This document shows, one piece after another, positions 5,962 to 36,460 of a DNA stretch of 36,869 nt (the stretch's first letter is position 1; each line of letters opens with the position of its first letter). Under the pieces are notes generated by a model. That model was not told where the DNA came from, made no database searches, and was given only the letters and a program-made list of their open reading frames with translations. Source of the stretch: Acidaminococcus hominis. Lineage in GTDB: Bacteria; Bacillota; Negativicutes; Acidaminococcales; Acidaminococcaceae. The translations under genes were made by a program, and so were the position numbers. The DNA lies in NCBI RefSeq assembly GCF_900291475.1, contig NZ_OLMM01000003.1, positions 25,051 through 61,919 on the forward strand, given 5' to 3'.

Positions 5962-6175
5962 AGCCTGAAACACCCGACAAAAAAAGGTGTGAAATAATGA
6001 AACTTCTATCGTCGCCTTCGGCGACACTTCCTACACGCTTGCAGGAAGCGTTCTATGCCACTACTGGTCAAGTAATAGACTAGGGTAGTGCAAATATTTA
6101 CGAACTATGCTGCTTTGCGATACCCGTTTTGCACATGACTCGTATAGGCCTAAGACTGGCCCCTGCTAGCGTTGC

Positions 6176-6292
6176 GCTCACATCCAAGAGCATATCCGTG
6201 GTTCAAAATGCTCTTGGTTCATGTGAGCCATGTGATAGCAGCCCAAGAAGCAAGCCCGCAGGGCGCGGCTGATTGGAACGCTGCGAACCACT
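6176..6292 (+). repeat. Structured module M0
   Basis: One 117-nt module. Stem 1 is GCTCACAT with ATGTGAGC, then CC, an inner stem CCAAGAGCAT/ATGCTCTTGG, and TTC. The fixed box CCATGTGATAGC follows. Stem 2 is GCAGC/GCTGC, then the fixed box GCGAACCACT. The strand given is the one in which the fixed boxes are read in this form; transcription is not shown. Confidence 0.7.
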
Positions 6293-6352
6293 AAGGGGCC
6301 GTCAGTCCGCAGGACTGACTGAGGAAGTTTATTAGGTACGGTTATAAAAAGC

Positions 6353-14169: not shown

Positions 14170-14487
14170 GAAAAACAGTAGGCCACACCAACACCCCCTT
14201 GACCGCACCAACCTTTAAAGGCTCCTCACTTTAGGGGGGAGCAGTCAGCCACGCAGTGGCTGACTGAGCGAGGATACCCGGAAAACATTGCCTGCAATGT
14301 TCGCTGACCGCACCAACCACCCAACGATTTGTCCAAATATTAGCGGCCCCCGGCCGCATGCCTTCCCCGCACAACAGCAGTCCCAAGCGGGGAAGGAAGC
14401 AATGCCGCCGGCATTGCAGGATGGGGCAACTACCTAAATTTCCGCACTAGCCCCTTTTAGCACACGACCAGTAGTGGTCTAAGAAAG

Positions 14488-14652
14488 CCTTCTGCAAACG
14501 TTGCGGTCACGTCCAAATATCTTTACAAGTTATCCAAAAGATATTTGGAATACGTGACCCATGTGATAGCTGCTCAGAAGGCAAGCCCGTAGGGCAACGC
14601 CGCCTGGCTAGCAGCGAACCACTGTAGAAGGTGTCATCCACAACGTGGATGA
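14488..14652 (+). repeat. Complete repeat unit with module M1
   Basis: Outer arms CCTTCT (14488-14493) and AGAAGG (14626-14631) enclose module M1 (14506-14623). Stem 1 is GTCACGT/ACGTGAC, the inner stem CCAAATATCTTT/AAAGATATTTGG, stem 2 GCTGC/GCAGC. The unit ends with TCATCCAC-AAC-GTGGATGA (14634-14652). Confidence 0.7.
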
Positions 14653-14721
14653 CGGATGAAGTTCAATCCAATAGGCCCGTAGGGCCAGCCCAAAGAGCGC
14701 CCATAGCTCTCGCCTTTGGGA

Positions 14722-15229
14722 GTCGTATCCACCGTTCAAGGCATCAGCCGCAGAAAGGTGGAATATACGACCCCTGTGATAGCTGCCCAGAAGGCAAGCC
14801 CGCAGGGCGACGCCGCCTGGCTAGCAGCGAACCACTATGCGGCCGCATCCAAACAGCCCAACAAATTCTGCAAGGGGCTGTTTGGTCAATAAGGCCCATG
14901 CGATAGCCGTCCGTGAGCCGAACCCTCAGGGTGACGGGGAACGGAATACGGCGAACCGCTTACGGCCGCATCCAAACATCCCCACAGTTTTCCAAAGGAT
15001 GTTTGGTTAATAAGGCCCATGCGATAGCGGCCTGCAAAGCAAGTCCGTAGGACGCAGCTGCGCAGCGAGCCGCGAACCGCTAGGAGAGCTGTCACCGCAG
15101 GCTGACTAAGGGAGTCGTATCCATTTCTCAAGGCCTCTGGCCGTAGAGAAATGGAATATACGACCCCTGTGATAGCGGCCCGCGAAGTAAGCCTGAAGGG
15201 CGTAACTGAGTGGGTAGCCGCGAACCGCT
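14722..15229 (+). repeat. Tandem modules M2-M5
   Basis: Four modules in the same direction. Stem 1 arms: GTCGTAT/ATACGAC in M2 and M5, GGCC/GGCC in M3 and M4. Stem 2 arms: GCTGC/GCAGC (M2), GCCGT/ACGGC (M3), GCGGC/GCCGC (M4, M5). Linkers are 4 nt (M2-M3) and 3 nt (M3-M4). M4-M5 have a 32-nt linker with its own small hairpin. The M4-M5 block is nearly identical to M7-M8 in R4. Confidence 0.7.
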
Positions 15230-15351
15230 CGAGGATACCCCGCACCATCGCCTGCAATGTACGCTGACCGCACCAACATCCCAAAGGGCCACTACCTGCA
15301 TTTATGCACTAGCCTCCCCATTTAGCACACGACCACTAGTGGCTTAGAACG

Positions 15352-15518
15352 CCTCTTTCAAGCGTTGCGGTCACGTCCAAACAGCGTCACAGGTATTCTA
15401 GAAGCTGTTTGGTACACGTGACCCATGTGATAGCCGTCCAAGAAGCAAATCCGCAAGGACGCTGCTGATTGGAGCACGGCGAACCACTAAAGAGGTGGCA
15501 TCCACAGCGTGGATGACG
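15352..15518 (+). repeat. Complete repeat unit with module M6
   Basis: Outer arms CCTCTT (15352-15357) and AAGAGG (15490-15495) enclose M6 (15370-15488). Stem 1 GTCACGT/ACGTGAC, inner stem CCAAACAGC/GCTGTTTGG, stem 2 GCCGT/ACGGC, 3' hairpin CATCCAC/GTGGATG. Confidence 0.7.
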
Positions 15519-15694
15519 AAGAAAGTTTAAAATTGGCCATCACCAACACCCCATGGACCGCACGTCCCGCCAAAACCTCTACCCTTTAGGGGAGAGGAAA
15601 GCATCCCCTTTCCACCGGCCGCAGTGTGATTGAAAGGGGATGCAGGAGAGGGGATACCCGGCATCAGCACACATCAGGTCCATTGCCCGCACCA

Positions 15695-15738
15695 AAAAGG
15701 CATACTGCTGACGCTCCCGCATCAGCAGTATGCCTTTT
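15695..15738 (-). terminator. Strong terminator after the hybrid kinase gene
   Basis: A perfect 17-bp stem (15695-15711 with 15722-15738, core GGCATACTGCTGA) and a 10-nt loop, with T-rich tails on both strands. It lies 31 bases past the kinase stop and ends the long envelope-gene run. Confidence 0.9.
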
Positions 15739-32358: not shown

Positions 32359-32447
32359 GTGATTTTAAAGAAAAGAATTGTATTTTGTCCCGCCCCACAC
32401 CAATACCCCCTGAACCGCACGACCCTTAAAGGCTCCTCACTCTGGGA

Positions 32448-32712
32448 GACGCATCCGGCCCGTCATCACAGGATTCAATGGCGGGCCGGCTAATGCGTCC
32501 CCTGTGATAGCGGCCTGCAAAGCAAGTCCGTAGGACGCAGCAGCGCAGCGAGCCGCGAACCACTGCGAGAGCTGTCACCGCAGGCTGACTGAGGGAGTCG
32601 TATCCATTTCTCAAGGCCTCCGGCCGTGGAGAAATGGAATATACGACCCCTGTGATAGCGGCCCGCGAAGTAAGCCCGAAGGGCGTAACTGAGTGGGTAG
32701 CCGCGAACCACT
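32448..32712 (+). repeat. Modules M7 and M8
   Basis: M7 stem 1 is GACGCAT/ATGCGTC with inner stem CCGGCCCG/CGGGCCGG; M8 stem 1 is GTCGTAT/ATACGAC with inner stem CCATTTCTC/GAGAAATGG. Both have stem 2 GCGGC/GCCGC and end GAACCACT. The block from late M7 through M8 nearly copies M4-M5 of R3. Confidence 0.7.
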
Positions 32713-32989
32713 GCGAGGATACCCCGCACCAGCACCAGGAATTCCGCTGACCGCACCAACAACCCAGCGGTCCCATCCAGGTATCAGCGGCCGCAGGCCG
32801 CAAGTGCCTTCCACTTACCTGTTCGCCGCGTTGCGCGAACAGGAGAAGGGGAAGGGTGGCATTGCCGTTGGCAATGCCGGGATGGGGTTCAAAACCCAAC
32901 CTCCCGGAGGGCCACTACCAAACTCTCCGCACTAGCCCCGTTCAGCGCACGACCAGTGGTAGCCTAAGAACGCTTCCTGCAAGCATTGC

Positions 32990-33110
32990 GGCCGCATCCA
33001 AACAGCCCAACAAATTTTGCAAGAGGCTGTTTGGTTAATAAGGCCCATGCGATAGCCTTCCAAGAAGCAAGCATGGCAGTGCGCAGCTGATTGGTAAACG
33101 GCGAACCGCT
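32990..33110 (+). repeat. Module M9
   Basis: Stem 1 GGCC/GGCC with inner stem CCAAACAGCC/GGCTGTTTGG, box CCATGCGATAGC, and ending GCGAACCGCT. Stem 2 is imperfect here (GCCTT against AACGGC), suggesting decay. Confidence 0.65.
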
Positions 33111-33314
33111 GAGAGGATACCCGGAAAACATCGCCAGAAAGTCCGCTGACCGCACCAACCGCCTGGAGGGCCACTACCATACTCTCCGCACTAGCCCCAT
33201 TCAGCACACGACCAGTAATGGCCTAGTAAGCCTTCTGCAAACTGGTATGCTATGAATAAAGTAGACTGGCATATAGTTAAACCTCCTGGATTCGTTGAAA
33301 GGAGAGTATGTAAA

Positions 33315-34013
33315 ATGTCTATATCGAAAGTCAGTGCAGAGGATAAATTAAAGGCTGTCAAAGCTGTTCTTGCTCATGAAGAATCACCAATGGTTTCTAC
33401 AAAAAGGTTAGGGGTTCACTGGAAAGCAGTACAGTATTGGGTAGATGAATATATAGGAAATGGTCCTGAGGTATTTAACAAAAGACAGGTTAAAAGTTAT
33501 TCTGCTGATCTTAAGATCCAATGCGTAGAGGAATATCTTAAGGGCGAAACGACTATGTCCCAGCTGGTACAAAAATACGGATTAAAAAGTTCTCGTCAAA
33601 TCAGAGACTGGTTAAAGAAGTATAATAGTCATGAGGAACTAAAAAGTTCGGGTACTGGAGGTGCCAAGATCATGACTAAAGCTAGACAAACGACCTTTGA
33701 CGAGCGCGTTGAAATCGTAAAATACTGCATTGAAAACGGGAATGCTTACCATGAAACCGCTGAAAAGTTTAAGGTTTCCTACCAGCAAGTCAGAAATTAC
33801 GTCTTAAAATATAATAAGTACAATACCGAAGGACTCATAGATGGGCGCGGACACAGGAAGCCAGTAGAAGTCCCTGAAGAAGCCCCTACAGAATATGAGT
33901 GTATGAAAGCTGAACTCAAACTGGCTAATGCAAAACTCAAAGCCAAGGATATGGAGATTGATTTCCTAAAAAAACTCGATATTGTGGAAAGGAGGCGGGA
34001 TTCACACAAATAA
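33315..34013 (+). CDS. IS3-family transposase OrfA
   Basis: 232 residues, DNA-binding part of the transposase. It holds repeated helix-turn-helix units (VSTKRLGVHWKAVQYWVDEY; MSQLVQKYGLKSSRQIRDWL; YHETAEKFKVSYQQVRNYVL) and a C-terminal leucine-zipper-like helix (ELKLANAKLKAKDMEIDFLK). It is longer than most OrfA proteins because of the extra HTH. Start at ATG 33315 with AAAGGAG 10 bases upstream; an ATG at 33252 lies in the left inverted repeat. Near its end the run of seven A at 33968-33974 is in phase for a -1 shift into orfB. Confidence 0.88.
   Translation: MSISKVSAEDKLKAVKAVLAHEESPMVSTKRLGVHWKAVQYWVDEYIGNGPEVFNKRQVKSYSADLKIQCVEEYLKGETTMSQLVQKYGLKSSRQIRDWLKKYNSHEELKSSGTGGAKIMTKARQTTFDERVEIVKYCIENGNAYHETAEKFKVSYQQVRNYVLKYNKYNTEGLIDGRGHRKPVEVPEEAPTEYECMKAELKLANAKLKAKDMEIDFLKKLDIVERRRDSHK
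33968..33974 (+). promoter_or_regulatory. Programmed -1 ribosomal frameshift site
   Basis: Seven A in the phase A-AAA-AAA relative to orfA, 12 codons before its stop, in the zone where the orfB frame is open. This is the classic slippery heptamer of IS3 elements. Confidence 0.8.
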
Positions 34014-34927
34014 GATATGGAGCCATTTATGAAGCCATTAAAGAACTGCACGCTGAAAAGAATTACCCTATTCTTGGCCTGTGCAAATTGGGAAAAGTGT
34101 CCCGGGCCGGCTACTACAAATGGCTTCATAGAGAGCCTTCAGCACGCGAAATTGACGACAAGGAAATTGCTAAAAGAATAGAAGAGATATACAAGGCTGA
34201 CCCAGCTAAAGGGTACAGACGAATAGCTGATGACTTACGAGCCCCAAATAAGAAGATCTATCCTGACACGAAACCAATAGCAATTGGTGACGGTCGCGTT
34301 CTTCATCTTTGTCGAGTGATAAATATAAAGTCTACGATTAAATATGCCCCTAAGGGCTGCACCCAGCGTGCAATAGATCCTGCATACATTGCAGAAAATA
34401 TCTTGAATAGGGAATTTAAAGCCGATGCCCCTAACCAGAAATGGTGTACTGACGTCTCAGAATTTCACTACTATGAGGGGGTAGTTGTGCATAAGGTATA
34501 TCTGAGCGCGATTATTGACCTGTATGACAGACGAATTGTTTCCTATGTGATAAGCAACCGGAACGATAAAAATTTGGTATTCAATACCTTCAATAAGGCA
34601 TTGTTGAAAAACCCTGGCGCGCATCCCCTGTTTCACTCTGACCGGGGATTCCAATACACCTGCAGGGATTTCCGCAAGATGATTCTAGATGCTGGTATGA
34701 CGCAGAGTATGTCACGGATAGGAAAATGCATTGATAATGGCCCGATGGAAGGCTTCTGGGGCATGCTGAAAAGAGAACGGTACTATACTCGTGACTTCGA
34801 CAGCCGTAAAGCTTTGGTAACGATGATTAATAACTACATGGAGTATTACAACAGTGGCCGTTTGCAGCGGAATTTGGGCCGTTTGACCCCTATGCAAAAA
34901 CATAATAGCTACCAAATGGCGGCGTAG
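33974..34927 (+). CDS. IS3-family transposase OrfB (DDE domain), made by -1 frameshift
   Basis: Catalytic half of the transposase. The frame is open upstream of the first ATG (34088) back to the A7 run at 33968-33974, so it is probably read as an OrfAB fusion after a -1 slip; this start is the point of the shift, not a start codon. A Shine-Dalgarno-like GGAAAGGAGG lies just after the slip site. The HTH_21 region (SRAGYYKWLHRE) precedes the rve core, with Asp in CTDVSEF, Asp in FHSDRGFQY and Glu in GPMEGFWGMLKRE. The end reads NLGRLTPMQ, as in the family. Confidence 0.88.
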   Translation, partial: TRYCGKEAGFTQIRYGAIYEAIKELHAEKNYPILGLCKLGKVSRAGYYKWLHREPSAREIDDKEIAKRIEEIYKADPAKGYRRIADDLRAPNKKIYPDTKPIAIGDGRVLHLCRVINIKSTIKYAPKGCTQRAIDPAYIAENILNREFKADAPNQKWCTDVSEFHYYEGVVVHKVYLSAIIDLYDRRIVSYVISNRNDKNLVFNTFNKALLKNPGAHPLFHSDRGFQYTCRDFRKMILDAGMTQSMSRIGKCIDNGPMEGFWGMLKRERYYTRDFDSRKALVTMINNYMEYYNSGRLQRNLGRLTPMQKHNSYQMAA

Positions 34928-35161: not shown

Positions 35162-36460
35162 CTATTTGAAATCGTTATTCTGTTCGGCGTTCAACTTTCC
35201 GCCGGCGTACAGTTGGTTTTTGACCAGCAAACCAAAAACGAGTCGTACTAATTTACGAGATGCAAGCGCGAGTGCTCTTTTATGCTGATGCTTTGGCACT
35301 TCAGCATATTTCTTGGCGTAATACTCTGCGTATTCAGGGATGTATCTTCGGACACTGTTTGCAGCCTCTCCAATATAATTACGGAGATATGTGTTACCCG
35401 TTCTGAAAACGGGTGTTTCCTCGGCCACGAAGTCGCCTGAATCGCTCTTGCGCCAAGTAAGTCCAACGTATTTAGCTAGCGAATCAGCTGAGCGAAAAGC
35501 GGAAATATCACCAATCTCAGCGAGAATGCCAGCAGCCAAGACTGGTCCAATACCAGGAATGGACCGTAGAATCATGTAGGCGTTAGGATTAACGCCCTTG
35601 ACCGTCTTTTCTATAGCATGATCAATTGCCTTAATTTCCTTCTTGTAAGACTCAATACAGTTGAACGAACTGGCCAGAGCGATTGTCAGGGGTTCAGCTG
35701 CACGCTTATCAAGACGATAGGAATCCTGGGCGGCCTTTTTTAGCAATTTAGAGGTTTCAGCTAAGTTTGTAATGCGATTCCGGCTTTTTTTTGCCAGAAA
35801 TTGTAGGAGCTCTTCTTCGCTGGCATCCACAATATCCTGTACAGAAAAGAATTCTGTCAAAACGGCAGCTGAAGTGGTCCCAAAAATGTTACTAAAGGGC
35901 TGTGATTCCTGATCCAAAATCTCCAGTTCACTAAATTTAAGAAACAGATTGGAAATCATGTAGGTCTTTTCTCTTGTGATGCATTCAGCGAGGTGCAGTC
36001 GGTGCCGTGTCAGACGCTTGAGTGCAAGAAACTGACTGCCTCTCCAGGGAGAACTCTTGATTTTGCCAACCCGAGCTAAATCAGAAATGATATATGCGTC
36101 CGTTGAATCAGTTTTGGAAAGGCCAATAAAAGTTTTTCGGTAATTCGCTGTGATTTTTGGATTGAGACAATAAACATACGGATGAAAAGGCATGAGAATT
36201 TCGCTGGCTGACAGGAAATTGGCAATATGAATACTGTACATGGAGGTGGATTCTAATGCGAAAACGATAGTATTTAGATTTCGATGAGAAAGCATACATT
36301 TACAGATAGCATTCGCCAATTTTTCAGCGCCAGGCTGATTATTAGGGAAAGAATCAGAAAGAAGCTTATTCTGTTCAAAGTCCATGGCATAGACAACATT
36401 GGATTTTGAACTTACATCAATACCGACGTATAAAGTTGACAAAGTGTTGATCTTAATCAT
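35162..36460 (-). CDS. IS110-family transposase (DEDD)
   Basis: 432 residues. The N-terminal RuvC-like domain has Asp in YVGIDVSSKSN, Glu in FALESTSMYS and the paired Asp in KTDSTDAYIISDLA, the DEDD set. A coiled middle part follows. The C-terminal Tnp_20 domain has SIPGIGPVLAAGILAEIGD and the serine region WRKSDSGDF. IS110 enzymes act with a bridge RNA encoded in the element's own non-coding end. AAGGAGG lies 8 bases before the ATG. The frame is intact. Confidence 0.92.
   Translation of the reverse strand: MIKINTLSTLYVGIDVSSKSNVVYAMDFEQNKLLSDSFPNNQPGAEKLANAICKCMLSHRNLNTIVFALESTSMYSIHIANFLSASEILMPFHPYVYCLNPKITANYRKTFIGLSKTDSTDAYIISDLARVGKIKSSPWRGSQFLALKRLTRHRLHLAECITREKTYMISNLFLKFSELEILDQESQPFSNIFGTTSAAVLTEFFSVQDIVDASEEELLQFLAKKSRNRITNLAETSKLLKKAAQDSYRLDKRAAEPLTIALASSFNCIESYKKEIKAIDHAIEKTVKGVNPNAYMILRSIPGIGPVLAAGILAEIGDISAFRSADSLAKYVGLTWRKSDSGDFVAEETPVFRTGNTYLRNYIGEAANSVRRYIPEYAEYYAKKYAEVPKHQHKRALALASRKLVRLVFGLLVKNQLYAGGKLNAEQNNDFK

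Follow-up and report, generated by a model that had tools for sequence, protein, structure and literature searches.

Structured, modular intergenic repeats of bacteria include ERIC, BOX and MITEs. Non-autonomous derivatives of the IS200/IS605 family carry subterminal hairpins and insert without duplication, and REPIN units consist of two REPs in inverted orientation. REPs are short intergenic palindromes of high copy number that occur in clusters or arrays and are thought to be miniature mobile DNA (excerpts of PMC3733652, together with general background). REPINs, which are REP doublets, are described as two-hairpin miniature mobile DNA of ∼100 nt (PMC3116915 and general background). The RHE repeats of mitochondria form hairpins or double hairpins, some of them with complementary substitutions, and are possibly mobile (excerpts of PMC2800124). 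At the larger end, ICEs that enter rumA through a serine integrase insert in the 3′ part of the gene and alter the tail of the protein (excerpts of PMC4701971).

The element described here is a 120-nt unit of two tandem hairpins, P1 and P2. Like the REPs of RAYT/TnpA-REP systems, it is short, intergenic, palindromic, arrayed and of high copy number. Unlike them, it carries neither a GTAG nor a CGTC tag, its two tandem hairpins make up one unit, and 13 of the 19 carriers tested have no Y1 gene. The two hairpins are direct, unlike those of REPINs. The element shares with IS200/IS605 derivatives the insertion without target duplication, as seen at empty and filled 23S-end sites of one genome (G248), but it ends at the very feet of its hairpins, guide and cleavage sites apart from these were not recognised, and at 12 Y1 places its ends were not shared with an autonomous Y1 copy. 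It fails defining tests of both the IS200/IS605 and the REP families. It differs from MITEs in lacking terminal inverted repeats, since the left TNN and the right CRC are each paired within their own hairpin, and in showing no clear target-site duplication (a 1-nt effect is possible). The modularity known from ERIC, BOX and MITEs arises here from different P1/P2 combinations. RHE are mitochondrial and shorter, and the likeness is one of description. As with the rumA ICEs, insertion in the 3′ part of a gene (rlmD) changes the protein tail; those ICEs are large and encode an integrase, whereas the element has 120 nt, encodes the tail in an arm of its hairpin and occurs at dispersed sites as well. 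A literature search found no description of the family, which is weak evidence of absence as few subscription journals were covered, and no known MITE family was found in the searches made. The elements make up a new miniature mobile family and are not confirmed as a class of RNA.

The window, i.e. the whole stretch of DNA that was analysed, comprises 36,869 nt of Acidaminococcus hominis. The initial annotation had described ten modules in it, and all ten were found at the places given, all on the + strand, with true starts mostly a few bases further 5′ (Table 1). Matches of a covariance model in the window were exactly these ten, each at E 1.1e-24 or better; the ten copies being among the 58 training rows of the model, the search tells us just that none had been missed. 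The two conserved boxes, with at most one mismatch, occurred 10 and 11 times in the window (0.8 and 4.0 expected), and the eleventh occurrence of the second box is no module.

Table 1. Element copies and parts of the host repeat in the window
Feature	Coordinates	Strand	Details	Basis
Element copy	6173..6291	+	within host hairpin, 6158-6164 GGCCCCT with 6294-6300 AGGGGCC (read from sequence)	covariance model
Host repeat, left part	14441..14501 (start approximate)	+	GCACTAGCC..TTTAGCACACGACCAGTAGTGG..AAACGT	repeat families D9, D10
Element copy	14502..14622	+	P1 class GTCACGT/ACGTGAC; first base pairs with A of CCA, terminal CAC with GTG; in host hairpin loop, arms 14488-14493 / 14626-14631 (read from sequence)	covariance model
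Host repeat, right part	14626..14666	+	AGAAGGTGTCATCC..GGATGAC..GAAGTTCAA	repeat family D4
Element copy	14718..14835	+	GGGA left end, CCC partner	covariance model
Element copy	14838..14959	+	P1 class GGCC; nearly head-to-tail with preceding copy	covariance model
Element copy	14961..15080	+	P1 class GGCC, left end TACG; head-to-tail with preceding copy	covariance model
Element copy	15110..15228	+	GGGA left end; T·G at P2 foot (TGT with GCT)	covariance model
Element copy	15366..15487	+	within host hairpin, 15352-15358 CCTCTTT with 15489-15495 AAAGAGG (read from sequence)	covariance model
Element copy	32444..32563	+	GGGA left end, stem GACGCAT/ATGCGTC	covariance model
Element copy	32593..32711	+	GGGA left end, stem GTCGTAT/ATACGAC	covariance model
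Element copy	32987..33109	+	P1 class GGCC	covariance model

The host repeat is a family separate from the element, and many element copies are inserted into it. It occurs in the window at 14441-14666, 15286-15530 and 6121-6345, and its long outer arms read CGTTTTGCACATGACTCGTATAGGCCTAAGAC.. and ..GTCAGTCCGCAGGACTGACTGAGGAAGTTTAT. Beside element clusters (14200-14330, 15230-15290 and 32700-32780) a further short repeat, GATACCC..CGCTGACCGCACCAAC, is found repeatedly. From the look of their sequences, we take the window ORFs 81-1484 and 33252-34927 to be transposases of the ISL3 and IS3 types, respectively. The ORF 35162-36460 has the look of an IS110-type transposase and matches PF02371.

A strict two-box pattern matched 100 places in the 2.6-Mb A. 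hominis genome (68 forward, 32 reverse), and none in a reversed control. The covariance model also found copies outside the strict pattern (e.g. L018:1690-1808, L021:1229-1348 and L043:1443-1564), so the true number in this genome exceeds 100. We could parse 97 of the 100 strict copies, 96 of them with the common end; three were unparsable for P1 and one more had no RCT end. The 96 copies comprise 85 distinct cores and measure 119–124 nt, one trailing base included; the aligned copies are mostly ∼93–129 nt long.

In strict copies the plan runs from TGCG or GGGA through a 7-base stem, a CC..GG inner hairpin, a three-base bulge on the 3′ side and the 7-base return arm to CC(A/C). It continues with T, G(T/C)G, ATA, GC plus three more stem bases and an inner hairpin with a GAA/TGA internal loop, and ends with a three-base bulge, the stem, GAAC and C(A/G)C. 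The partner of CC(A/C) is the very start of the module: all 76 copies that start with TGCG pair it with CCA, and all 15 that start with GGGA pair it with CCC. Together these make up 91 of the 100 strict copies, the other nine being mis-cut or variant. At the other foot, G(T/C)G matched C(A/G)C in 93 of 100 copies (TGT/ACT 60, TGC/GCT 33), with five mismatches and two other ends. Because the box bases are paired at both feet, the module consists of two abutting hairpins that fill its whole length from the first base to the last, the 5′ end lying at the foot of P1 and the 3′ end at the foot of P2. Fixed single-stranded boxes had been proposed for these modules. Most of their bases are, however, paired; the T between the hairpins, the internal loops ATA/GAAC and GAA/TGA, and bulges of one and of three bases are left unpaired.

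Both hairpins are in direct orientation, with the same 3′-side bulge in each, and share a core of stem, three-base bulge, CCAA/TTGG and GAA/TGA. P1 and P2 types occur in many different combinations among the copies, which suggests that the hairpins may recombine in their loops. In one copy (G000:C13:8994, locus L047) P2 resembles a chimera of two P2 types and its stem pairing is lost. In other genera we observed the same plan in quite different letters, with feet such as TGC/GCA, TAC/GTA, TTC/GAA and TGG/CCA, and GTC/GAC, GCC/GGC and GCA/TGC. The termini TGCG or GGGA.. and ..CRC of A. hominis are elsewhere mostly TNN..CRC or a paired variant of it.

The fold was analysed on an alignment of 58 copies, 55 from the A. 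hominis genome and three from another family. Paired cells amounted to 96.6% of 2142, compared with 77.1% after shuffling and at most 38.7% with the partner slid. Changes on both sides were seen in 28 of 37 pairs (23.1 shuffled) and in 455 cells (132.6 shuffled), these being counts of sequences, not of events, from copies that within one genome also swap hairpins. The covariation score was 0.566 (0.193 shuffled), while further pair types showed no excess over shuffles (61 versus 64.4). The compensatory stem changes reported by the initial annotation are by these measures far beyond chance, and the selection on a fold that it deduced is strongly supported by covariation over the 58 copies. Folding without a given structure returned the same two hairpins in four of four elements, both as RNA and as DNA, with small differences in the internal loops, and the folding z-scores were about −4.2 to −6.9 on both strands. 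Since both strands fold about equally well, folding energy cannot separate DNA from RNA.

The initial annotation also implied a possible new class of structured RNA, with the boxes as protein or RNA contacts. That it is no known RNA class agrees with our searches of Rfam release 15, in which no family fell on the element: the sole match in the window was a tRNA-Arg, the best E in 14200-15720 was 0.93, far below gathering, and at gathering scores no family lay on the element in 28 other loci. G·T pairs filled 24 of 2069 cells in the aligned A. hominis set and 37 of 2518 in 75 rows from other genomes (1.2–1.5%), as against 82 of 1106 cells (7.4%) in 51 distinct tRNAs from the same collection of loci. 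They are five to six times rarer in the element (Fisher p 3e-24, the cells not being independent), which thus lacks the appreciable G·U pairing of structured RNA genes. Scarce G·T could also arise if copies swapped whole hairpins, or if an RNA had to pair very strictly. G·T exceeded A·C by 61 to 24, the latter count excluding 14 cells of conserved C·A in one P1 class in the per-pair table; this indicates that the + strand is the folded strand.

Ninety-six of the 100 A. hominis copies lie outside ORFs of at least 150 codons. Classified by ORFs that were chosen by length and are unannotated, the gaps holding the 100 copies were convergent in 40 cases, divergent in 14 and co-oriented in 29, with 17 unclassified at the edges of the fetched DNA. 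Among the 29 copies in co-oriented gaps, 15 are sense and 14 antisense. Such indifference to the strand speaks against an RNA gene, as a selected RNA should care about its strand. A structured RNA class is therefore disfavoured by the rarity of G·T, by the balanced orientation and by the nested, mobile copies described below.

The two-hairpin unit can be traced across dozens of genera with a patchy spread. A first model (R1) found it in 64 of 380 genomes of the class, A. hominis included, and in 20 of 102 genera; the absences are weak, as at most nine candidates were scored per genome, and this also holds for eight genomes of the same genus in which none was found. A second model (R2) matched 11 of 398 genomes across the phylum, A. 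hominis again included and families outside the class among them, and, in another class of the phylum, 37 of 391 genomes and 32 of 222 genera, with rough E-values, so that a few weak matches may be chance. We take the class to be Negativicutes and use Selenomonadaceae as a presumed taxon name; genome G519 presumably belongs to Clostridia. Phage and plasmid collections gave no blastn match. Scans of genome and viral collections with an over-loose pattern matched 117 and 120 stretches, which is the reckoned chance level, and these were used solely in the tRNA control pool.

The ends of the element could be read from nested copies and from empty sites. The copy at C4:557480 lies inside P2 of another copy as GGGGA[TGCG..CACT]ACGG, where uninterrupted copies read GGGGAACGG; C13:122553 and C13:34844 are similar. 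These insertions disrupt the P2 of the receiving copy, and nested A. hominis copies gain one T beyond the T1..CRC unit, possibly a 1-nt junction effect. In the single-contig genome G248, one rRNA operon is filled directly after the 23S gene (C1:1373251-1373590), with 118 nt between the matched halves. At six other places of this genome the alignment runs through the junction, and at five of them it reaches base 170 or beyond of a 222-base query. Two of the empty sites read CTTT|CAGAGC and CTTT|CAAAGC, and the filled one CTTT[TGCTG..TTGACCGC]CAAGAGC. The comparison shows that the element spans T1 to CRC and has no clear target duplication. Insertion is precise and without target loss. Genome G243 holds a head-to-tail array with 118-nt spacing. 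At G000:C8:66258-68119 (locus L036) there are three head-to-tail blocks of ∼791 bp, each with two elements of different P1/P2 types. As copies are nested in each other and occupy sites that are otherwise empty, the element is, to judge from these sequences, almost certainly mobile.

Of 96 A. hominis copies, 76 have T immediately 5′ of the element and 20 have A. Many copies of this genome sit in the hairpin loop of the other repeat family, in either orientation relative to it. An inverted repeat of at least 6 spanning the element was present in 43% of 92 contexts, compared with 19% for shuffled flanks (shuffled maximum 32%). Overall, frequent locations of the element are the loops of hairpins in other repeats, the 3′ ends of rRNA and tRNA genes, and gaps on the downstream side of genes.

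The genes of candidate mobilising enzymes, namely Y1 transposase, reverse transcriptase and IS110-family recombinase, did not track the element across the carriers; on this ground IS200/IS605 or RAYT enzymes and IS110 were rejected as movers, and reverse transcriptases are unlikely ones. Reverse transcriptase was present in nine of 18 carriers, A. hominis included, and absent in the other nine (G243, G127, G135, G139, G133, G128, G104, G285 and G363). IS110-family recombinase is present in A. hominis and absent in 14 of 20 carriers. One carrier, G285, has none of the three. A bridge-RNA or attC-like reading was set aside by reasoning, as there are no large guide loops and no gene cassettes.

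We consider the element to be a new, small, non-autonomous mobile DNA element of two tandem hairpins that would move as folded single-stranded DNA, a reading to which we assign a probability of about 0.6. The mechanism is likely one of single-strand DNA. It would be the + strand of the module that folds and moves, and an enzyme acting in trans may cut and join it at the hairpin feet, recognising the shared hairpin core (stem, three-base bulge, CCAA/TTGG, GAA/TGA). Precise insertion, ends at the hairpin feet and a common core fit an enzyme that, like those of IS200/IS605 or REP systems, works on one strand in folded form.

Most surprising is the tail-carrying form of the element at rlmD. Its start falls within codon HV|E near the end of rlmD in several genomes, and the P1 arm re-encodes the protein tail, e.g. 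HVESVALIVRK*. The ORFs of L364, L368, L399 and L400 are RlmD (TIGR00479, E 5e-104 or better), while L475, L477 and L478 were assigned to rlmD from the translated tail only. In L364 the displaced original tail, ETVVLINRK*, lies just beyond the element. Judged by eye, such a tail followed the element plainly in 11 of 13 rlmD-site copies, partially in one and not in one; in L459/L509 the stretch after the element may instead start a second element. By the RlmD model, the insertions are at one codon in five families (f15, f35, f63, f115 and f155). Of 28 chosen genomes, 25 yielded rlmD loci, 30 in all, and 10 of these loci have an element at the HV|E spot; this is no frequency, as the genomes were chosen as element carriers. 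In A. hominis rlmD is intact, with two element copies slightly downstream. Many dispersed copies start with TGAG or TGGAG, the V-E codons of rlmD, and L455, L402 and L411 retain TGAAGCCCTAGC or CGAAGCCCTAGC, like the rlmD-tail copy L477. By these shared letters, the dispersed copies appear to descend from an rlmD-inserting form with a substitute gene tail in its P1 arm.

The rlmD form leads to another possible reading, about which we are doubtful: a new kind of DNA element that homes by its hairpin arms, carries a copy of the target in P1 and has no element-specific transposase. The P1 arm would be a copy of the sequence downstream of the target, the end of rlmD; the complementary arm would pair with the target strand, and the inserted arm would replace the gene tail and leave the host protein whole. 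Later loss of the target sequence might then have let the element scatter into hairpin loops and to rRNA and tRNA ends. The mean identity of the P1 arm to the right flank was 0.47 in the 13 rlmD copies and 0.29 in 155 other rows, of which six reached at least 0.5 and some share genomic places. Shifted or offset starts lower the scores of L491, L499 and L500. The lack of such likeness in the dispersed copies argues against target-arm homing as a general rule.

The positions of some copies would suit an RNA-linked mechanism, with insertion at the mature 3′ ends of 23S, tRNA and 5S and after T-tracts. An element starts directly after the 23S 3′ end in L301 (LSU model 1-1500, element from 1501) and likewise in L307, directly after the CCA of a tRNA in L315 (tRNA-Leu by reading) and at the 5S 3′ end in L312. 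In L390 it starts seven bases past the 16S 3′ end, as delimited by eye, and T-tracts form the left flanks in L294, L295, L316 and L319. Together with the excess of G·T over A·C, this would fit a bacterial SINE-like element, whose RNA would be copied to DNA, with insertion tied to the 3′ ends of other RNAs through template switching or priming where rRNAs, tRNAs and terminators end. We nevertheless find it unlikely, given the nine carriers that have no reverse transcriptase, the rarity of G·T relative to tRNAs, and the many copies that lie in hairpin loops or antisense to rRNA (L296 and L307 have antisense copies beside 5S); no A- or T-tail was seen after the 3′ end in the flanks inspected.

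The 23S-5S spacers of L307 and L296 hold inverted elements, two each by the model and, in L296, a third by eye. In L307 the complementary P1 arms of the inverted elements could form a long stem. A pan motif (RF01749; L366:1262-1352) is located near a copy beside 5S.

The single codon used in five families, where the gene tail is replaced as by integrative elements, would also fit a passenger of a site-specific recombinase that targets rlmD, either a large serine or a tyrosine integrase. P1 and P2 would then be folded attachment sites and the dispersed copies secondary-site insertions. rumA is a known target of serine integrases, those of streptococcal ICEs and CTn5 (excerpts of PMC4701971). 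This is quite unlikely, as the element has no integrase, many of its sites are unrelated to rlmD, and the rlmD direct repeats, being long and diverged, do not resemble a short crossover core; nor does a serine integrase need precise two-hairpin ends.

Kinship with REP/REPIN or IS200/IS605, spread by a Y1 (RAYT/TnpA) transposase since lost in many carriers, is very unlikely. It would account for hairpin ends, one favoured strand, intergenic location, high copy number and the absence of a clear target duplication; Y1 genes are present in six of the 19 carriers tested, and REPs lacking a dedicated transposase have been recorded (CGTC REPs, excerpts of PMC3733652). Y1 is, on the other hand, absent from A. 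hominis and 12 other carriers, among them G243 with its tandem array, and present in all four non-carriers tested. Among 12 Y1 places scanned (13 sources, L392 repeating L324), clear elements were near only one, a Y1 copy of G244, which we take to be Selenomonas sputigena; the second Y1 copy of that genome had no elements nearby, and the place L331 gave a weak match (E 0.017). The missing GTAG tag and the direct rather than inverted hairpins also speak against it. Finally, a structured RNA that serves the host as terminator, processing signal or sRNA, and that selection has preserved after duplication, would explain the covariation and the copies in rRNA spacers and downstream of genes, but is extremely improbable in view of the missing strand preference in A. 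hominis, the eight same-genus genomes in which none was found among at most nine candidates scored per genome, and the nested insertions that break each other's P2.

Bacteria commonly carry small hairpin repeats, but the ends, an empty site and the fold are seldom all this clear. The same unit can be followed from a tail-restoring insertion in rlmD to an amplification of a hundred copies. As DNA that apparently travels in the form of a folded single strand, and for which no enzyme of its own was recognised, it offers a testable case, and it may explain repeats and rRNA-spacer inserts in the class and elsewhere in the phylum.
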